64,000 nucleotides of DNA, from positions 124,001 to 188,000 of the forward strand of contig JAUYQQ010000019.1 of the NCBI GenBank assembly GCA_030697165.1. Direction: 5' to 3'. Every line of letters starts with the position of its first letter. Positions within the stretch are counted from its first letter, which is position 1. Made by a program: the position numbers and the translations under genes. This document shows, one piece after another, positions 6,726 through 57,654 of this stretch. Under the pieces are notes generated by a model. The model had not been told where the DNA came from, did not search any database, and saw only the letters and a list, made by a program, of their open reading frames with translations. Source of the DNA: Acidobacteriota bacterium (lineage in GTDB: Bacteria; Acidobacteriota; Vicinamibacteria; Vicinamibacterales; UBA2999).

Positions 6726-9536
6726 CTAGAACACATCCACGCCGAACGAGAACCCATAGGTCTGTCCGAGCTTGTAGGAGCGCTGGCGCGAGCTGCCCTG
6801 GTTGAAGAGATATTCGGCGTCGGTCAGGTTCTCGACGCTGAAGCGCAGGTTGTAGCGCGAGCCGAAGCGCTGTAACAGCACCAGGTCCACGGTCGCGCGG
6901 CCCTGTTCGACGATGTCGGGCGCGCCGTTCGAGCCGACGTCCGAAATGCGGTCGCCGACGAAGTTGACCAGGCCGCGCACCGAGAACCCGCCGCGCGCGA
7001 ACTCGCCGGTGAGGTTGAACAGGTTGTTCGACTGGCCGGCCAGCGACCGCTCGAGCGAGGTCTGCACCGTCTGCTGCTCGGGCAGCAGGGTGATTTTCGA
7101 GTCCACGTAGGTGTAGTTCGCGTTCATGAAGAAACCGCCGCCGAGCTCAAACGCGGTTTCGAACTCGAGGCCGAAGTTGCGGGCCTTGTCGGCGTTCTGG
7201 AACGTGGTAATCGGGTTGGCCGCCGCGATCACGACGCGCTCGATCGGCTGGTCGAAGTACTTGAAGAAGGTGCTCGCCGACACGATGCTGCGGCCGCCCG
7301 GGAAGAGTTCCCAGCGGGCGTCGACGTTCTGGATCAGCGCGCGCTTCAGGTTGGGATTGCCGCGCGTGGCTCGGCTGCCCACCACGTCGGTGAACTCGAA
7401 CTCGGCCAGCTCGCGGAACTCGGGACGGTTCACCGTCGTGCTATAGCCCAGCCGGATGTTCTGCCGGGCGCCGACCGACTGCACGAAGTTGACCGACGGA
7501 AAAATGTCGGTGTTCTTGTTCTCGGCGGTGATGGTGCGCTGGAACAAGCCGAACGGGTCGAACGTGTTGACGGTCTGCTCGAAGTTTTCGACCCGGGCGC
7601 CGGCGATCAGGCGGCTGCGCGCCGACAGCGTCATGTCCATCATGCCGTAACCGGCCATGGTGGTCTGCTCGCCATTGTAGGCGTCGACCGGGCGGGTTTC
7701 CTCGTTGAAGCGAAACGCCGTGCCGATGTTGTTCGAGGTGTAGAGCTGCTCCGGCGTCTGGGTCAGGTCAACCGGCGACGCGCCGTCCTTGGTGGCCACG
7801 ATCGGGATGAACCGGAAGCGGCGGGACGAGAAGTCGCGGGTCCGCTCAACGTAGTTGACGCCGAACTTGAACTGGGTCGGCCGGGCGCCGGTCGTTTTGA
7901 ACGCCGCATAGTTGGCCGCCAGGTCGAGCGTCTCGTCGTCCAGTTCCTGGAACAGGCGGAAGCCGCTCTGCGATTCGTCGGCGAGGACCGGCCGGACCGC
8001 CGGGTTCGGCTCCAAGGTCCCTGACCGGAATGGCTGCTGATACAACGTCTCGCGCAGGTCCGGCTCGTCGCGGTTGGCGCGCGCCAGGTTCACCCGCCAG
8101 TCAATACGGCTGTTGGACGCACCCGGAAAAAAGTGGTCGCCGGAGAGAGCCGTTGACAACAGGCCCTCTTCGACGAAGGCCAGGCGCGAGTTGCGGTAGT
8201 AGAAGACGTTCTCGGTATTGGGCCCCTCGAAGGTGCGGCCCTCGTCCTTGCCGCTGTGGCTGTAGAAGTTCTCCAACGAGATCCGGTTGTTGGAGTTCAT
8301 CTGGTACGCGAAGTTGGCCACCGCACCAATCTGTGCGCGCTGGGTGCCGTACTTCATGTCGTAGTCACTGACCGCCTCGAGCTCGTCGTCGTCGCCAATA
8401 CGGTAGAACGCGCGCTGTTCCTCGACGTACTGCTCCTTGTACGACTGCGTGAAGCTGGTCACCACGCCGACCTTGCCGAAGCGATTGCCGAACACCGCGC
8501 CCCAGTTCTGGCCGGGCGCGCCATCCGCCGCCGTGGGGCTCCACGTATTCCCCAGCTGCCGGCCGTACTCGGTAATCTGTTCCGGCGTGTAGCCGACGTC
8601 AGGGGTGTAGATGCCGCGCCGGACCACTTTGTTGCCGGGAATGCCGCCCGGCAGCGCCCGCAGCCCGTTGTCGAAACCGAGGAAGTCACGCCCGTTGAGC
8701 GGGCTCAGCGGAATCGACTTGCCGGTCGCGGTCGAGTAGCCACTCAGGCCATACGAAAACGACATCACGGCGCGGCTCGGGAACTTGAGGGGGTTGATCT
8801 GCACCAGGCCGCCGGCGAACTCGGCCGAGCGATCCGGCGAGTACGACTTGCTGACCTGCACGCTGTCGAGCAGGCCGGCCGGGAACAGGTCCAGCGGCAC
8901 GACCTTCTTGTCGGGTTCGGTCGTCGGCAGCGTCGAACCCGAGAGCGTGGTGTTGCTGTAGCGCTCGCCCAGGCCGCGGACGAACACATACTGGTTGTCA
9001 ACCACCGACAGCCCGGTGACGCGCGACATCGCCGCGGCCGCGTCGGAGTCGGCGTTCTTCTTCATTTCCTGCGAGCCCAGGTTGTCGGTGATGACCGGCG
9101 CCGCCTTGCGCTCAACCATCTGCGCTTCGGCCGACGAGGTCACCGCGCCGAGGAACGCGTCGGCCGTGACGGTCACGGTTTCGGCGAACCGGCTCATCTG
9201 CAGGGCGACGTTGGCGTCGATCACGCGCGCGCCGGCCGGCACCACGACCTTGATCACCTGGGTGTCGTAACCCTCCATCGCGACCTTGATCTCGTGGGTG
9301 CCCGGAGGCAACTCGAACAGGAAGCGGCCGTCCACGTCGGTATAGACCGTCGCGGCACCCGCCACTTCAACCGGAATGCCCGGTAACGTGATGTTGTTGG
9401 ATTCGTCCTTGACGATACCCGTCACGCGCACTTTGCGGGCCGTCGTGGCCTGGGACGCCTGTTCGGCGGCCGCGAGAGCGACCGGGCTGGACAGCAACAG
9501 GCCGATTAGGGCCGCCGCGCCTACATTTCGATTCAT
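6726..9536 (-). CDS. TonB-dependent receptor with N-terminal carboxypeptidase-regulatory domain
   Basis: 936-residue outer-membrane receptor. After a signal peptide (MNRNVGAAALIGLLLSSPVA) comes a carboxypeptidase-regulatory-like Ig fold (VRVTGIVKDESNN to about residue 105). Next is the plug domain (ITDNLGSQEMKKNADSDAAA, SVVDNQYVFVRGLGERYSNT) and a long beta barrel ending in the aromatic motif FSFGVDVF. The start was placed at ATG 9536, preceded by GAGGGG; the frame extends further without a ribosome site. Receptors of this layout import large or complexed nutrients. The following genes encode a beta-helix-like secreted protein and a lipoprotein, possible surface partners. Ligand unknown. Confidence 0.92.
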   Translation of the reverse strand: MNRNVGAAALIGLLLSSPVALAAAEQASQATTARKVRVTGIVKDESNNITLPGIPVEVAGAATVYTDVDGRFLFELPPGTHEIKVAMEGYDTQVIKVVVPAGARVIDANVALQMSRFAETVTVTADAFLGAVTSSAEAQMVERKAAPVITDNLGSQEMKKNADSDAAAAMSRVTGLSVVDNQYVFVRGLGERYSNTTLSGSTLPTTEPDKKVVPLDLFPAGLLDSVQVSKSYSPDRSAEFAGGLVQINPLKFPSRAVMSFSYGLSGYSTATGKSIPLSPLNGRDFLGFDNGLRALPGGIPGNKVVRRGIYTPDVGYTPEQITEYGRQLGNTWSPTAADGAPGQNWGAVFGNRFGKVGVVTSFTQSYKEQYVEEQRAFYRIGDDDELEAVSDYDMKYGTQRAQIGAVANFAYQMNSNNRISLENFYSHSGKDEGRTFEGPNTENVFYYRNSRLAFVEEGLLSTALSGDHFFPGASNSRIDWRVNLARANRDEPDLRETLYQQPFRSGTLEPNPAVRPVLADESQSGFRLFQELDDETLDLAANYAAFKTTGARPTQFKFGVNYVERTRDFSSRRFRFIPIVATKDGASPVDLTQTPEQLYTSNNIGTAFRFNEETRPVDAYNGEQTTMAGYGMMDMTLSARSRLIAGARVENFEQTVNTFDPFGLFQRTITAENKNTDIFPSVNFVQSVGARQNIRLGYSTTVNRPEFRELAEFEFTDVVGSRATRGNPNLKRALIQNVDARWELFPGGRSIVSASTFFKYFDQPIERVVIAAANPITTFQNADKARNFGLEFETAFELGGGFFMNANYTYVDSKITLLPEQQTVQTSLERSLAGQSNNLFNLTGEFARGGFSVRGLVNFVGDRISDVGSNGAPDIVEQGRATVDLVLLQRFGSRYNLRFSVENLTDAEYLFNQGSSRQRSYKLGQTYGFSFGVDVF

Positions 9537-10318: not shown

Positions 10319-10391
10319 CCGACGGGAGGACACCTCTCGTCGGGAGGGCACCGCTTGTCGGGGGGCAATCCTTGTCGGGATTGCCTCCCGA
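10319..10391. repeat. 18-bp-period repeat array, copy 1 (sodC/MFS intergenic)
   Basis: Four CGGGAGG-like cores begin at 10323, 10341, 10359 and 10377, exactly 18 bp apart. One inverted core (CCTCCCG) follows at 10384-10390 and could pair with the last forward unit. About 9 bp are conserved and 9 bp vary per unit. It fills the gap between two convergent genes. Same family as 10959, 13032 and 56433. Confidence 0.85.
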
Positions 10392-10393
10392 TT

Positions 10394-11584
10394 CTATTTT
10401 CGGCGCCATCTCCCGGACAACGCCACCAGCACGGCCACCATCAAGGCCGCGAGAATCCCGAATACCACGCCGTAACCCGTAACGCCGGCCAGCGCCGCCG
10501 CCGCCACCGGCCCGGCCGCGCGTGCCAGTTGTTGCGGACGGGCGAACACGCCGTTCATCTCACCGGCGCGGTCCTGGCCATAGAACACCAGCACGAGGTA
10601 CGGCCTCGCGACGGTCGCCAATCCCGAACCACACGCAAACAGCGCCACACCGCCGGCAATGGGCGCGAACGAGTCTGACGCCGCGAGGACCAACAGCCCT
10701 GCGACCTGCAAGCCAACGCTCGTGGCCAGCAATGCCCGTGGGCTGATGGCGCCGGTGCGTCGGGCAAACAGAAGCCGGCCAGGCAGTTGCATGATGCCGA
10801 AGACGCCGCCGAGCGCTGCCGCCGCCCTCGGCAGCAGCCCGCGATCCACCAAGGCCGGAACCAGGTTGGTCGCGAGGGCGGCCCCGGCGAAACTCGAGAC
10901 GGTGAAGATCGCGATCAGTGCTGCCTGCTTGCCCGCCGTAGCGCGCAGCGCGAAGGTGGGACGGGAAGGCACATCCTGTCGGGAGGGCAAGCTCTGTCGG
11001 GAGGGTGCCACTGGTCGGGAGGGTGCGTTGCCTGCGAACACCAAACGGTGGACCGCGACGGTCGCGATTGCGAGCAGTGCGGCCAGGATGCCGACCGCCG
11101 GACGCCAGCCCAGGCCATCGACCAGTGCGCCAGTCAGGGGCAGGAACACCGTGCTGGCGAGGCCGCCGAAGACGGTGATCGTGGCGATGGCGCGCAGGCG
11201 ATCGCCGGCGTCGGCCACGGCTTTGCCGACCATACCGAAGATGGGCTCGTAGAGCACGGCGGCCATGCAGACGCCGAGCGCGGCCCAGATCAGGTACGAA
11301 AGCACGACGTTCGGCACGAGCGCCCACACCGCGAGCAGGGCCGCCGCGGCGAGGCCACCGGCCTGCACCACGAACGGACCCTGCCCGCGATCGACGAGCC
11401 TGCCGACCGGCGGTGACGCCACCGCCGACACCAACAGCGCCACCGAGAACGCACCGACCACCACCCAGCGCGCGACGCCAAGTTCGCGCTCGACTGGGAC
11501 GACCAGGACGCCAAAGGCGTAATACAACACGCCCCAGCTCACGCACTGGCCGAGGCCGGTGGCCCAGACCTCGCGGCGGGTCAT
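10394..11584 (-). CDS. MFS transporter in the arsenic-type locus, carrying an in-frame 18-bp repeat array
   Basis: 396-residue major facilitator with about twelve hydrophobic segments. It opens MTRREVWATGLGQCVSWGVL and has a loop 2-3 motif of the GRLVDRG type. The start ATG overlaps the stop of the upstream flavoprotein gene (ATGA), so the two are translationally coupled. This pairing, opposite arsR-arsC, suggests export of an arsenic compound, but I cannot name the substrate. The central loop between helices 6 and 7 holds four six-residue repeats with a PSR core (APSRPV, APSRQS, LPSRQD, VPSRPT), encoded by an 18-bp DNA repeat found elsewhere as non-coding arrays. Confidence 0.85.
   Translation of the reverse strand: MTRREVWATGLGQCVSWGVLYYAFGVLVVPVERELGVARWVVVGAFSVALLVSAVASPPVGRLVDRGQGPFVVQAGGLAAAALLAVWALVPNVVLSYLIWAALGVCMAAVLYEPIFGMVGKAVADAGDRLRAIATITVFGGLASTVFLPLTGALVDGLGWRPAVGILAALLAIATVAVHRLVFAGNAPSRPVAPSRQSLPSRQDVPSRPTFALRATAGKQAALIAIFTVSSFAGAALATNLVPALVDRGLLPRAAAALGGVFGIMQLPGRLLFARRTGAISPRALLATSVGLQVAGLLVLAASDSFAPIAGGVALFACGSGLATVARPYLVLVFYGQDRAGEMNGVFARPQQLARAAGPVAAAALAGVTGYGVVFGILAALMVAVLVALSGRWRRK
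10959..11036. repeat. 18-bp-period repeat array, copy 2, inside the MFS coding sequence
   Basis: CGGGA cores at 10962, 10980, 10998 and 11016, each 18 bp apart, with variable 9-bp partners. Because 18 is six codons, the array keeps the MFS frame and is read on the minus strand as xxPSRx repeats in the central cytoplasmic loop. The flanking transmembrane helices are intact. Confidence 0.9.
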
Positions 11585-12990: not shown

Positions 12991-13031
12991 CTCTTCGCTC
13001 GCTTTCGCCGCACCTGGCGGGAAGGGGTTAC

Positions 13032-13157
13032 GTGTCGGGAGGACAATCCTTGTCGGGAGGACAATGCTTGTCGGGAGAAGTCAGGTTCTGATCCCGACAA
13101 GAGGTTCCCTCCCGTCAAGAAGTGCCGCCCCGTCAAGAATTGTCGTCCCGTCATATT
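13032..13157. repeat. 18-bp-period repeat array, copy 3 (divergent ars promoter region)
   Basis: Three forward TCGGGAG cores begin at 13035, 13053 and 13071. Four inverted CCCGWCA cores begin at 13093, 13111, 13129 and 13147. Spacing inside each set is exactly 18 bp. The first two forward units read TTGTC-GGGAG-GACAA, a 5-bp inverted repeat. The forward and inverted halves could also pair with each other. It lies between the flavoprotein and arsR starts, next to the arsR operator-like palindrome. Confidence 0.9.
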
Positions 13158-13203: not shown

Positions 13204-13581
13204 ATGTCAGCCCCCTGCTGCTCGGCCAAACCGGCGCCGAAAGTGAAGGATCTCGAGGCCTTGACCGGCGTCTATGCAGCGCTGGCGGACTCGACCCGCC
13301 TGCGCATTCTCGCGCTGCTGCGCGACGGCGAGGTCTGCGTGTGCGACATCCACGCCAGCCTTGACGTGCCGCAGCCCACCGCGTCGCGCCACCTCGCCTA
13401 CCTGCGCAAGGCCGGCCTGGTCGATGCCAGGCGTGATGGCACCTGGATGCACTATCGGCTGACGCCGATCGACAACCCGGTCGTGGCTGCCGTGGTCGAT
13501 GCGGCGCTGCATGCCCTGTCGCATACCGCCGCCAGCGTGACCGACGAGCGGCGCCTGCAGGTGGCGCGCAAGGCCTCGTGA
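13204..13581 (+). CDS. arsR: ArsR/SmtB-family metalloregulator
   Basis: 125-residue winged-helix repressor. The recognition region is QPTASRHLAYLRKAGLV, and the metal-sensing motif EVCVCDIH has Cys45 and Cys47 as in the As(III)/Sb(III)-sensing type (alpha-3 site). An extra CC pair sits at residues 5-6. A longer in-frame reading begins within the intergenic array and is rejected because ATG 13204 fits the family start. The stop overlaps the arsC start (GTGA). An AT-rich palindrome precedes the gene. Confidence 0.93.
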   Translation: MSAPCCSAKPAPKVKDLEALTGVYAALADSTRLRILALLRDGEVCVCDIHASLDVPQPTASRHLAYLRKAGLVDARRDGTWMHYRLTPIDNPVVAAVVDAALHALSHTAASVTDERRLQVARKAS

Positions 13582-30194: not shown

Positions 30195-31478
<1,284 letters not shown>

Positions 31479-31513
31479 TCTCGTGATCTGGTGATCTAGC
31501 GAGCTGGTGATTC
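31479..31513. repeat. Imperfect GTGATCT tandem repeat
   Basis: GATCTCGT, GATCTGGT, GATCTAGC, GAGCTGGT then GATTCGT: about five 8-bp units filling the gap between gltA and the M28 peptidase gene. The last unit contains the peptidase GTG start. Confidence 0.6.
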
Positions 31514-32410
31514 GTGATTCGAAGACTGACTCTTGCCTGGTGCGCCCTGGTGGTGCTCGCCGTCTCCGGCGCGCACGGTCAGGGCGCCGTCGCATTCGAC
31601 AGCACAAGAGCCTGGGAGCATCTGCGCCAGCAGGTGGCCATCGGCCCGCGGCCGTCCGGGTCGCCGGGTAACGTCAAGAACCGCGAATACATCACCAAGA
31701 CGCTCGCCGCGATCGGCCTCAAGACCGTCGAACAGGCGTGGACGGCCACGACGCCGCTTGGCCCAATCAAGATGGTCAACCTGATCGCGTCCATCCCCGG
31801 CCAGCGGGCCGAGCGCATCATCATTGCCAGCCACTTCGACACCAAGCTGTTCCGGGAGTTCCGGTTCGTCGGCGCCAGCGACGGCGCGTCGAGCACGGCG
31901 GCGCTGCTGGAGCTGGCGCGGGTCATCAAGGCGCGGCCGACACTCCCCTTCACCATCGAGCTGCTGTTCCTCGACGGCGAGGAAGCCACCGGCGAGTGGG
32001 TGGGCACCGACAACACCTACGGCAGCCGCCACTACGTGGAGGTCGCCCGCAAGACCGGGACGCTGAAGTCGCTGCGGGCGATGATCCTGCTCGACATGAT
32101 TGGCGACCGCGACCTGAACATCCGCCGCGAGTCGAACTCCACGCCGTGGCTGACCGACATCGTCTGGAACGTGGCGCGCAGGCTCGGCCACCAGCGTCAT
32201 TTCATCGAGGAATCGATGGCGGTCGAAGACGACCACCTGCCCTTCCTGAAGGCCGGCGTGCCCGCGATCGACATCATCGACCTCGACTACCCGGCCTGGC
32301 ACACCGCGCAGGACACCCTCGACGCGGTATCGGCGCGCAGCCTGCAGATCGTGGGTGATGTGGTGGTGGCGGCCTTGCCGGAAATCGAAGCGCGACTGCT
32401 GAAGAACTGA
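31514..32410 (+). CDS. Secreted M28-family metallopeptidase / glutaminyl cyclase-like
   Basis: 298 residues with a signal peptide (LTLAWCALVVLAVSGAHG). Zinc-site motifs of the M28/glutaminyl-cyclase fold: SHFDTK, GASDGASSTAALLELAR, FLDGEEATGEW, LLDMIGDRDL and AWHTAQDT. Proteins of this shape are either aminopeptidases or glutaminyl-peptide cyclotransferases. The single-zinc pattern with a conserved Asp before GASST and the WHT motif favours the cyclase-like branch; not certain. Start GTG 31514 lies in a short tandem repeat and lacks a clear ribosome site. Confidence 0.8.
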   Translation: MIRRLTLAWCALVVLAVSGAHGQGAVAFDSTRAWEHLRQQVAIGPRPSGSPGNVKNREYITKTLAAIGLKTVEQAWTATTPLGPIKMVNLIASIPGQRAERIIIASHFDTKLFREFRFVGASDGASSTAALLELARVIKARPTLPFTIELLFLDGEEATGEWVGTDNTYGSRHYVEVARKTGTLKSLRAMILLDMIGDRDLNIRRESNSTPWLTDIVWNVARRLGHQRHFIEESMAVEDDHLPFLKAGVPAIDIIDLDYPAWHTAQDTLDAVSARSLQIVGDVVVAALPEIEARLLKN

Positions 32411-53983: not shown

Positions 53984-55243
53984 GGGAACGGCCGAGCACG
54001 AGCGCGCTGTTCTTCGAGCCGAAGCCGAGGCAGTTGCAGAGCGCCGCCTCGGGTTGCGCGGCGCGGCCGTGGGTGGGGATGAAATCGAGATCGCAGGCGG
54101 GATCGGGATCGGTGAGGTTGATCGTCGGTGGCAGGAAGCCGCGCGACAACGCCAGGGCGGTGGCCACCACGCCGGCCGCGCCGCTGGCGCCCTGCGGGTG
54201 GCCGATCATCGACTTGGTGGACGAACCGGGGATGCGATCGGCCGCGCCGCCGAACGCCAGGCGGGTGCAGCGCGCCTCGATGGTGTCGTTCAACTGCGTC
54301 GAGGTGCCGTGGTAGTTGATGTAGCCAATGTCGGCGGGGTGCCGTCCGGCGCGGGCGATGGCCGTGTGCATGCAGCGCACGATCTGCTCGCCGTCCGGGT
54401 CCATCTGCACGCGGTGGTATGCGCACAGGTCGAGGCATAGCCGTCGATGGTCGCGTAGACCGCGGCGCCGCGCGCGCGGGCGCGCTCCTCCAGTTCCAGG
54501 GTCAACATCCACGCGCCCTCGCCCAGAACGAAGCCGTCGCGTCCGCGATCGAACGGCCGCGAGGCCTCGGCACCGCGATCGTTGTAGTGGGTCGAGACGG
54601 CGCGCATGCGCGAGAAGCCGAAGATCATGCCCGGCAGCACGCAGCCATCGGTGCCGCCCGACAGCAGCACGTCGCACTCGCCCTGGCGCAGCAGCATGCA
54701 CGCGTAGCCCAGCGCATCGGTCGAACTGGTGCAGCCAGTGGACATGACATGGCTGATGCCGCGCACCCCGAGCGCGATCGAGATCTCGCTCGACACCATG
54801 CCGCAAATGCCGAGGGCAATGGCGTAGGGCGTCACGTTCTTGCCGCCGGTGGTGAAAAAATCCTGGTATTGCCGCTCGCCGACGTCGATGCCGCCGCCGC
54901 CACTGCCGATGATCACGCCGGCATTCGCCTCGCCGAAGACCAGGCCGGCGTCGTTCCAGGCCTCGCGGGCCGCGATCACGCCGAACAGTGCGGCACGGGA
55001 GTAACGCTTGGGATCGGCGTGCGAGTCCCTGGCGCTGGCTTCGCCGCTCAGGGGCTGGGCGGCGGTGATGTCCAGGGGCGGCACGGGCGCCGCCACCTTG
55101 CAGGGGTAGGTCGAGACGTCGAACTCGGTGATGGCGCGGGTGCCACTGCGCCCCTGGCGAATGGCGTCCCAGTACACCTCGCGCCCGGCCCCGAAGGCCG
55201 AGACGACCCCAATGCCCGTGATGGCCACGCGCGGCACGCTCAC
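53976..55243 (-). pseudogene. Beta-ketoacyl-ACP synthase (FabF/KAS II-like), broken by one frameshift
   Basis: About 422 residues if repaired. The 5' part has VAITGIGVVSAFG and the active-site Cys in STGCTSSTDALG. Near 54423 the frame breaks, and after a +1 shift the protein resumes with YHRVQMDPDGEQ, then active-site His in YHGTSTQLND and SMIGHPQGASGAAG. The text reads STC-AYH, where homologues usually have DAYH; losing one base of the Asp codon explains it. The break separates Cys from both His, so the encoded protein would be inactive unless this is a sequencing error. The start is placed at GTG 55243. Confidence 0.75.
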
Positions 55244-55245
55244 CC

Positions 55246-55289
55246 GCTGAACCCCCTGAACCCGTGAACCCGTGAACCCGTGAACCATT
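55246..55289. repeat. TGAACCCG 8-bp tandem repeat
   Basis: TGAACCCG three times plus TGAACC at 55257-55286, with a related TGAACCCC just before. It sits at the ketosynthase 5' end and makes falsely extended N-termini (HGFTGSRV) in longer frames. Confidence 0.8.
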
Positions 55290-56399: not shown

Positions 56400-56432
56400 G
56401 ACTTCATTGTAGCTTGCCGGGCGGCCGATCTG

Positions 56433-56541
56433 GGACGGGGATGCACCATCTGACGGGGTGACGCCACGCAACGGGACTGTCCCGACCAATGGCACCGCCC
56501 CGTCGAGCAGTGTCCTCCCGTCAAGTCGTGCCTCCCGTCAT
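56433..56541. repeat. 18-bp-period repeat array, copy 4
   Basis: Three forward CGGG cores at 56436, 56454 and 56472. Four inverted CCCG cores follow at 56481, 56499, 56517 and 56534 (last step 17 bp). This is the same 3-forward plus 4-inverted layout as copy 3, again in a divergent promoter region. Confidence 0.85.
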
Positions 56542-56551
56542 AATCACCAGT

Positions 56552-57622
56552 GTGACAGTCGCGTTCTACATCTCTGGCCACGGGTTTGGTCACGCCTCCC
56601 GGTCGATCGAGGTCATCAACGCCCTGGTTGACCGGCACCCTGGCGTGCGCGTGGTCATCCGCTCCGCCGTGGCGCCGTGTCTCGTCAGCCGCACGGCGCG
56701 GCCAGGGGTCGTGCTCGAACCGGTCGAGACCGACACGGGCGTGATCCAGCTCGACAGCCTCAACCTGGACGAAGCCGCCACCCTCGTCCGCGCGCGGGAG
56801 TTCATGGCCACGTTTCCGGAGCGCGTCGCGGGCGAAGTGGCATACCTGAGGCAGGCCGGCGTGACGGCCGTGGTCGCCGACATTCCGGCACTGGGCATCG
56901 CCGCGGCGCATGCGGCGGGCGTGCCGGGCATTGCCCTCGGCAACTTTACCTGGGACTGGATTTATTCGGGCTACGCCGGCAGCGCCGACCTGGCCGACGC
57001 GATCGGCGCCGTGTACCGGCACACCACGCTCGCGCTGCGGCTTCCCATGTGGGGCGGGTTCGCCACCATGCCGGCGGTGCTTGACGTGCCGTTTGTCGCG
57101 CGGCGGTCGTCACGCGACCCGGCGGAGGTCCGCCGCCTGCTGGGCCTGCCGGCGGACGAGCGCCTGGTCCTCGTCTCGTTTGGTGGCTACGGGGTGGAGG
57201 GGTTGAACGTCGCGGCCCTGCGCCAACTGGCCGGCTACCGGGCGCTGCTGCCGGGAGATGTCGACGAGGCCGCGATGTACGCCAAGGGCTTACGCTACGA
57301 AGACCTCGTGCGCGCGGTCGAGGTCGTCGTCAGCAAGCCCGGTTACGGCATCGTGTCCGAATGCCTGGCCAACGAGACCGCCCTGCTCTACACGTCGCGG
57401 GGACACTTCATCGAGTACGACGTCCTCGTGGCGGCGATGCCGCGATTCCTGCGAGCCGCCTTCATCGACCAGGCCCACTTGTTTGGCGGCCACTGGCGTC
57501 CGCACCTCGATGCGCTGCTGGCGCAGCCGGCGCCACCCGAGCACCCGCCGACCAACGGCGCGGAAGTCGCGGCCGACCGGATTCTGGAAATTACAGGAGA
57601 TCAAGAGATCAGGAATAAGTAA
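56552..57622 (+). CDS. MurG/GT28-like glycosyltransferase
   Basis: 356 residues. N-terminal VAFYISGHGFGHASRSIEV is the opening of GT-B enzymes related to MurG and the N-terminal half of L-arabinokinase-type proteins. The second half has LVSFGGYGVEGLNV and VVVSKPGYGIVSECLANETA, the nucleotide-sugar site. Sugar and acceptor unknown. GTG 56552 was chosen because upstream codons read array A. Its C-terminus, TGDQEIRNK, comes from repeat D. Confidence 0.82.
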   Translation: MTVAFYISGHGFGHASRSIEVINALVDRHPGVRVVIRSAVAPCLVSRTARPGVVLEPVETDTGVIQLDSLNLDEAATLVRAREFMATFPERVAGEVAYLRQAGVTAVVADIPALGIAAAHAAGVPGIALGNFTWDWIYSGYAGSADLADAIGAVYRHTTLALRLPMWGGFATMPAVLDVPFVARRSSRDPAEVRRLLGLPADERLVLVSFGGYGVEGLNVAALRQLAGYRALLPGDVDEAAMYAKGLRYEDLVRAVEVVVSKPGYGIVSECLANETALLYTSRGHFIEYDVLVAAMPRFLRAAFIDQAHLFGGHWRPHLDALLAQPAPPEHPPTNGAEVAADRILEITGDQEIRNK

Positions 57623-57654
57623 TGAACAACTCCTGAACTCCTGATCTCCTGTTT
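57593..57654. repeat. Repeat family D, copy 2 (22-bp inverted repeat)
   Basis: The left arm starts ACAGGAGATCAAGAGATCAG and the right arm ends CTCCTGATCTCCTGT; 20 of 22 bases pair around a 16-base loop. It joins the convergent ends of the glycosyltransferase and thioesterase genes and suits a two-way terminator. Confidence 0.85.

Follow-up and report, generated by a model that had tools for sequence, protein, structure and literature searches.

The STRR heptanucleotide repeats of heterocystous cyanobacteria are short tandem repeats lying between genes, and the RPE palindromes of Rickettsia occur inside genes as well. A CRISPR array consists of long conserved repeats with unique spacers and is accompanied by cas genes. 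The closest described counterpart of the arrays reported here is found in Xanthomonas and Nostoc, whose GGGAATC and GGGGA(C/T)T heptads are, in the sections of Rehm et al. (2015, PMC4692102) cited here, dispersed, mostly intergenic and without known function. According to the same sections, the Xanthomonas heptads lie nearer to the 5′ ORF (28 versus 160 nt on average), form convergent inverted pairs and most commonly have four units, and their positions are mostly conserved between two species while their length varies. The position rule holds irrespective of ORF direction; it also holds in Nostoc, where inverted pairs are few. In these sections the position rule is left without an explanation for both genera, and the four-copy preference in Xanthomonas is explained by quadruplex formation only (PMC4692102).

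In the present study, a stretch of 64,000 nucleotides (the window) from an uncultured Acidobacteriota genome was found to carry arrays of a GNCGGGA core with a period of 18 bp. Like the heptads as described in those sections, the 18-bp arrays lie nearer to the 5′ gene (the median distance is 14 bp to the gene behind, on the 5′ side, and 93 bp to the gene ahead), form convergent pairs and prefer four units, and all six arms in the window have four cores. Unlike the heptads, they have a period of 18 rather than 7 bp, a constant core with a semi-variable 11-bp linker, a distinct first core and a fixed 3′ end; they are common between divergent genes, where heptads are rare, and neither sequence nor host is related. 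The unit is CTTGTCGGGAGGGCACTN and lacks the GGGNATC heptamer of GGGAATC-type repeats. Outward G-strand, convergent pairs and four-copy preference therefore match what was already known from the cited part of the Xanthomonas work, and the new features are the 18-bp (once 22-bp) period, the fixed end, a first core that differs from the others, and sites that suggest growth from it. No description of this array family was found in searches of open-access PMC papers. The view in the initial annotation that no named element has this form thus holds for the 18-bp form within the searched literature, but the GGGAATC heptads, as far as the cited sections go, obey the same main rules (PMC4692102). That these rules appear in another phylum with an 18-bp unit suggests a class of repeats rather than a single heptamer, and a quadruplex with short loops becomes less adequate as a simple explanation. 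How an array is born can be predicted in concrete, testable terms from its fixed end, its marked first core and the orthologous sites with a lone first core.

Other dispersed repeats share some of these features. The STRR repeats are likewise dispersed intergenic tandem repeats, but have 7-bp units and another sequence. The TAACTGA repeats of Beggiatoaceae, with 169 direct sets and one indirect set in the genome described, are also dispersed short direct-repeat arrays near start codons; they differ, in the part of the paper cited, by a 7-bp unit, another sequence and a place mostly just upstream of starts (PMC4679880). Borg tandem repeats, which belong to giant archaeal elements, are A-enriched and arise independently; they lie between genes and in ORFs like the 18-bp arrays, and the abstract mentions no outward rule (PMC9879509). 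REP sequences of the GTAG and CGTC types occur in genes too, many of them for replication and repair, and the CGTC type is without known transposase in the cited part of PMC3733652. REP elements, as far as that part goes, and RPE elements are stem-loops of 20–40 bp tagged with a tetranucleotide, whereas the 18-bp arrays are direct repeats without such a unit stem. No REP-type palindrome of 20–40 bp with a GTAG or CGTC tag was present in the profile of 208 inner units, and CGTC occurs in the arrays only on the complement of GAC-type cores.

Four-core arms in the window

The window was searched for chains of the core GNCGGGA (at most one mismatch, spacing of 17–19 bp, at least three cores). Six chains were found, each of exactly four cores (Table 1). 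The chance level, from 60 first-order Markov shuffles, was 0.03 chains of at least four cores and 1.35 chains of three per window. Core triples occur 10 times at exactly 18 bp and once at twelve other spacings combined.

Table 1. Arms of the 18-bp arrays in the window
Feature	Coordinates	Strand	Cores
Single arm, four cores	10321..10380	+	GACGGGA 10321, GTCGGGA 10339, GTCGGGG 10357, GTCGGGA 10374 (last step 17 bp)
Single arm, four cores	10960..11020	+	10960, 10978, 10996, 11014
ars array, forward arm	13016..13076	+	GGCGGGA 13016, GTCGGGA 13034, 13052, 13070
ars array, inverted arm	13092..13152	-	GACGGGA 13146, GACGGGG 13128, GACGGGA 13110, GTCGGGA 13092 (G strand)
Forward arm	56416..56476	+	GCCGGGC 56416, GACGGGG 56434, GACGGGG 56452, AACGGGA 56470
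Inverted arm, four cores	56480..56539	-	GACGGGA 56533, 56516, 56498, 56480

The initial annotation had described a phased array of three forward and four inverted units with a strict 18-bp period in the ars promoter region. The array is present, but it has four cores in each arm (13016–13152), because the core at 13016, 16 bp to the left of the start first assigned, had been missed. The period is 18 bp throughout the window except for two steps of 17 bp, and is thus not perfectly strict. A like architecture about 43 kb away (56433–56541) was found as described, except that the arm beginning at 56416 also has four cores. The arrays noted at 10319 and 10959 are real as well; each is a four-core arm, one after a stop codon and the other inside an MFS gene.

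Genes were called with a simple in-house caller, and their starts are approximate. The first core of the forward ars arm lies 25 bp outside the ATG (12990, − strand) of a flavoprotein gene with a Pyr_redox_3 match. The inverted arm adjoins an ATATTCG..CGAATAT dyad, followed by the ATG at 13204 of an arsR-family gene, whose regulator product matches HTH_5; the dyad is probably the operator of this gene. An LMWPc gene (family match), presumably arsenate-reductase-like, is located near the array. No plasmid relatives of the ars array were found in the search. The 10321 arm starts 11 bp past the stop codon of a Cu/Zn superoxide dismutase gene, and one inverted core-like TCCCGAT lies near 10386. 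The 10960 arm lies within the coding sequence of the MFS transporter (a − strand gene), where the reading frame is open across the array. A relative, G006, has an array at the matching place, with one flank only, because the contig ends there. The next gene has its called GTG start at 56552, 12 bp from the first core of the 56480 inverted arm, and the orthologous gaps in G005 and G008 are without an array.

Distribution and anatomy of the arrays

Is this array confined to a few loci? In the genome of the window (G000, 5.39 Mb), the exact pair GTCGGGAGG-N8..12-GTCGGGAGG occurs 48 times, of which 46 are at an 18-bp period, and the reversed control occurs 0 times; the four loci noted at first are thus not the only ones. 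With a three-core pattern (GNCGGGR-N11; overlapping matches on both strands, so that a four-core array is counted twice), matches and control matches were 108/9 in G000, 164/0 in G006, 128/0 in G007, 13/2 in G001, 8/0 in G008, 7/0 in G003, 4/0 in G005, 1/0 in G002 and 7/4 in G040. G004, of the same genus, has 0 three-core matches and 0 control matches. Within the taxonomic family, 7 of the 43 genomes have the exact pair (control, 1 match), and a CTTG-anchored relaxed pair is found in 9 of 43 (control, 5 matches); one of the nine lies outside the genus and has a single match. In the phylum, a strict three-core pattern is found in 5 of 396 genomes, namely G000, G006, G007 and two with one match each; its control gave six matches in three genomes. 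The 18-bp arrays are therefore a genome-wide, nearly genus-restricted family, far above chance. G040, from another genus, has 23 exact pairs with irregular spacing and other linkers, and so may carry a separate family. Coding-repeat matches elsewhere cover at least 118 stretches, with 80 loci listed; by eye, and among the matches listed, the linker is seen only on the ND5_Bin_50 and E14_maxbin.140 contigs, and three other Acidobacteriota records and other phyla have different linkers. The G006 contigs C6, C26, C41, C43, C45, C54 and C55 start or stop inside arrays or within a few dozen bases of them, and arrays thus probably break short-read assemblies and are undercounted.

The anatomy was analysed in 82 arrays (at least three cores, at least two of them exact, steps of 16–20 bp allowed) from the window and 20 stretches each of G000 and G006; except for the window, the stretches were picked around arrays. 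An array has a first core GNCGGGA, where N is mostly not T, followed by (11-bp linker + GTCGGGA)n, and stops exactly after GGGA. Among 300 steps, 279 are of 18 bp, 18 of 17 bp and 3 of 19 bp. The inner unit (208 units) reads, in per cent, C 97, T 82, T 71, G 99, T 87, C 100, G 100, G 100, G 100, A 96, G 89, G 95, G 90, C 65, A 82, C 75 and T 62, followed by a free base. The second base of the first core is A in 40%, C in 27%, G in 15% and T in 19%, compared with 87% T in the inner cores; in 19 arrays of G007 it is A in 9, T in 6, C in 3 and G in 1. Past the last GTCGGGA, the information falls from 1.77 to 0.04 bits (81 arrays). Agreement with the linker consensus is 3.06 of 11 positions for the 11 nt beyond the last core and 8.01 of 11 for true linkers inside arrays; at least seven matches are seen in 3 of 82 post-array 11-mers versus 242 of 300 real linkers. 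This sharp stop after the last GGGA means that an array is core-(linker-core)n, with a core at both ends. The fixed end phase, together with an orientation rule over many loci, bears out the earlier suggestion of a genuine element beyond random slippage.

Four cores are found in 30 of 44 arrays of G000 (the geometric expectation is 10.8), 13 of 38 of G006 and 8 of 19 of G007, which has five cores in another 7; these counts rest on chains of at least three cores, and the 44 arrays of G000 are those of the stretches read, not the genome total. Many arrays are single arms. Linkers differ at 2.7 of 11 positions within an array and 4.0 of 11 between arrays, so that arrays are partly homogenised locally. 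The arrays do not have the form of a CRISPR array, since they have a 7-bp core and an 11-bp linker with a consensus of its own. Rfam searches at the gathering score in the window, L068, L063, L094 and L092 gave one tRNA and no match at the arrays. A pure 7-bp GTCGGGA repeat lies directly after a stop codon at L066:16733–16790, and may link the 18-bp family to the heptads.

Arrays at the edges of genes and inside them

Of the 82 arrays, 61 are intergenic with both neighbours known; 18 called in-gene and 3 at contig ends were left out. The G-rich strand points outward: 43 of the 61 are nearer to the 5′ gene and 17 nearer to the 3′ gene, with 1 tie. Of the arrays next to a stop codon, 25 of 28 lie no more than 15 bp from it, and of those next to a start, 17 of 33 no more than 30 bp. 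In 7 of 32 cases, the final A of GGGA adjoins the stop codon of a convergent gene, and some arrays abut the start codon directly (CCCGTC|ATG). Divergent genes flank 13 of 64 intergenic arrays. A general strand bias of intergenic DNA was rejected as the source of the orientation rule: across all intergenic DNA, the left half of the gap is the more G-skewed one in 117 of 201 gaps of G000, 84 of 157 of G006, 24 of 44 of G005, 33 of 55 of G002 and 16 of 34 of G034. This skew is only weak, and the outward rule thus belongs mainly to the repeats.

Some of the 18 in-gene calls stem from mis-set starts. In family searches, MnmE, Mfd, HpnC and an error-prone DNA polymerase, which I take to be of the DnaE2 type, scored above the curated cut-offs; an STT3-like protein reached 426.8 bits against a cut-off of 450, and a protein related to 3-hydroxy-D-aspartate aldolase 149–161 bits against 690. 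In all family-checked cases, the frame is open through the array. A specific tie to ars or to promoters is not supported: arrays also follow stops, precede starts and sit within these genes. The MnmE loop has an array in G000 and G007 and none in seven other genomes. An array is also present in the HpnC loop of G000, G006, G007 and G008; in G040 the cores of this loop are irregular, and five further genomes have none there. In the polymerase loop, G006 and G007 have the 18-bp array, and nine further genomes have a different repeat or none; this variable loop is a recurrent repeat hot spot, with different families by species (L238 of G040, L231 of G001, L232 of G002 and L235 of G005). Annotators should note that conserved proteins become longer where an array lies in frame, and that an intergenic array can pass for a regulator box.

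Orthologous sites in relatives

Where both genomes carry an array, several arrays have a common position and common borders but differ in copy number. L073 and L094 have 4 and 6 cores upstream of the same gene, and the 4 cores at the arsR-family gene of the window correspond to 3 cores at the orthologous position in G006 (L087). In seven aligned orthologous arms, one of them trimmed to the fitting register, 6 of 182 core sites and 77 of 187 linker sites had changed; the core constancy is inflated because the arrays were found by their cores.

An unconditioned comparison was made with nine gaps of G000 queried in four genomes, eight of them comparable. Among the matches listed, the relative has an array in 5 of 21 anchored comparisons, one with a 22-bp period. 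In the other 16 of 21, again among the matches listed, the gap is near-empty or holds other sequence, often head-to-head tandem repeats. The initial annotation had suggested a maintained element, which is right for some arrays at a shared position across species, but not in general, given 5 of 21 comparisons among the matches listed. CCGGGAT-type heptads take the place of the array in the L060 gap of G006 and G003 and the L068 gap of G003, and CAGATGACG nonamers in the L061 gap of G006; the L083 gap has heptads in G003, G007 and G008. In the MnmE loop and the L083 gap, sequence is replaced in relatives, not simply interrupted.

Three gaps have single cores or a common outermost core without common inner units. 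At the L069 gap, the four-core array of G000 is matched in G003 and G006 by its exact start alone, gattctaGCCGGGAtggcac.gcgg. At the L060 gap, G000 and G007 have in common the two outermost inverted cores, which are separated by a 22-bp step; the inner units have 18-bp steps in G000, whereas all five G007 cores step by 22. At the L068 gap, where G000 has nine forward and four inverted cores, G007 has one of each. Growth from an old outer core predicts these patterns, and contraction to a single core would look alike. With other repeats or a lone first core in relatives, the arrays look like opportunistic extensions of a pre-existing core, not like dedicated ars regulators.

At L369 (G007:C34), five copies of the same core lie at 336, 358, 380, 402 and 424, a 22-bp period, where G000 has an 18-bp array. 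Between the genes flanking L056:7055–7324, the gap holds an array in G000 and G006 and a small ORF in G007 (L362), which presumably encodes a four-helix-bundle (23S-intervening-type) protein. This gap also contains a terminator-like hairpin with a T tract, which is conserved in G000 and G006, together with the array, and in G007 (L056 ~7090–7140, L361, L362). The array is thus probably not the terminator there.

How the arrays may arise

On balance, it seems probable that the arrays are a dispersed, nearly genus-restricted tandem-repeat family of the same general kind as the outward GGGAATC heptads, with replicator-like growth from cores. Their spread is probably that of a replicator-like or neutral sequence, not of sites that regulate particular genes. 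Growth would start at a pre-existing GNCGGGA core in dispensable DNA, at the border of an intergenic gap or in a variable protein loop, and would add whole units of an 11-bp linker plus GTCGGGA on the 3′ side, as read on the G-rich strand. The units would be copied from other units, by slippage in cis or by template switching or gene conversion in trans, with the core as a priming, recognition or landing motif, and the product would be tolerated at gene edges and in loops. Such a role of the core would account for fixed cores, drifting linkers and arrays that start and end on cores, and two arms growing from both edges of one gap would give the head-to-head four-plus-four hairpin. The growth direction is suggested by three loci; core-primed growth toward 3′, copying in trans and the lack of a gene-specific function are what I infer. 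Open-ended growth would not predict the four-core mode, which is weaker in G006 (13/38). In G007 the first core is less clearly marked (T in 6/19), and core constancy in orthologous arrays also suits selection for a function.

Because conservation per position is so uneven (97% at C(−3), 99% at G0 and 100% in CGGG beside a free position), protein binding is a serious rival, possible although I hold it to be doubtful. A host protein, perhaps a tetramer, would bind four in-phase cores at gene borders as an insulator, a terminator aid or a nucleoid mark, with selection holding the cores while the linkers drift. The four-core mode, the orientation rule and the orthologous arrays with unchanged cores and changed linkers (arrays having been found by their cores) are consistent with such binding. 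It is harder to reconcile with arrays in the middle of coding sequences, with relatives that lack the array at orthologous borders in 16 of 21 comparisons among the matches listed, and with G004, which has no three-core match within the same genus.

Selection for a non-B DNA or RNA structure, that is, a predicted G-quadruplex of four GGG tracts or a head-to-head hairpin acting in transcription or at mRNA ends, is quite unlikely. Four G-tracts are favoured as in the GGGAATC repeats, which form G-quadruplexes in vitro according to the cited sections of PMC4692102, but a quadruplex does not require the conserved C at −3 and +2 or the conserved G at 0, and the loops from GGG to GGG would be 15 nt. 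In a folding test of six sequences against dinucleotide shuffles, z was −5.41 (+) and −5.48 (−) for the ars array, −4.11 for the 56416 array and −5.50 for 10319–10390, but a modest −2.43 for the 10959 single arm and −2.41 for the two-armed L063 array. Besides, many arrays have a single arm, and hairpins follow from the inverted order anyway. Very unlikely is a transposase-moved miniature element, REP/RAYT- or RPE-like, inserting in tandem 3′ of a CGGGA target. A fixed 3′ boundary, a target-like first core, copies within genes as for REPs (in the cited part of PMC3733652) and slightly closer same-index linkers in the pooled set (permutation p 0.002) would suit it. Against this, linker order has an effect of 0.08 mismatches, which is not seen when G000 is taken by itself (p 0.26), the unit does not form a 20–40 bp stem-loop, the MnmE loop and the L083 gap are replaced rather than interrupted, and Y1 transposases do not track the arrays: each of the ten genomes tested has them, even those poor in arrays (46 matches in total), and no three-core chain was seen in about 1.5 kb on each side of all 12 Y1 loci of G000, G006 and G007.

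Several specific sources of the arrays were rejected. Since Y1 genes are unlinked to arrays where read, a REP/RAYT driver was discarded; of the first 20 Y1 loci scanned for core pairs, two were positive, L332, at a distance of more than 1 kb, and L348, in C-rich sequence some 250 bp beyond the called ORF. A whole-array mobile element from a four-core ancestor was discarded because same-index linkers are hardly closer than different-index ones. The mismatches in G000 are 4.76, 4.75 and 4.71 versus 4.78 (permutation p 0.26), and p is 0.02 in G006 and 0.002 in the pooled set for the difference of 0.08, so that any signal of such an ancestor is at most faint. RVT_1 (PF00078, E ≤ 0.001) has no match in G000, G006 and G001 and one in G007; with no match in three array-bearing genomes, telomerase- or DRT-like reverse-transcribed arrays were rejected. 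By eye, the arms of L063 are not mirror copies, which speaks against a fold-back origin of the inverted arm, and no covariation was seen that would make the first-core bases hairpin partners between arms.

Growth from cores may also be put in a wider form, which I regard as unlikely. A general bacterial process would add whole units to the outward 3′ end of G-rich cores at gene edges, in a telomere-like direction and apparently without a recognisable reverse transcriptase. The units would be lineage-specific (18 bp here, 22 bp at one G007 site, 7–9 or 14 bp in other families), addition would tend to stop at four, and the Xanthomonas and Nostoc heptads and the 18-bp arrays would be products of the same process.

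Other tandem repeats in the same genomes

Tandem Repeats Finder detected many other intergenic families of 7, 8, 9 and 14 bp in the stretches of G000, G006, G005, G002 and G034. Oriented by the G-richer strand, which for some is richer by a small margin, 102 are nearer to the 5′ ORF and 58 nearer to the 3′ ORF (12 versus 9 in G034 alone). Further families of G000 include the octamers GGTTCACG, TGATCTCG and CAGGAGTT and GGATCAG heptamers (window 55242–55286, 31476–31518 and 57628–57651; L066:7056–7141). Many of these families likewise have the G-rich strand outward.
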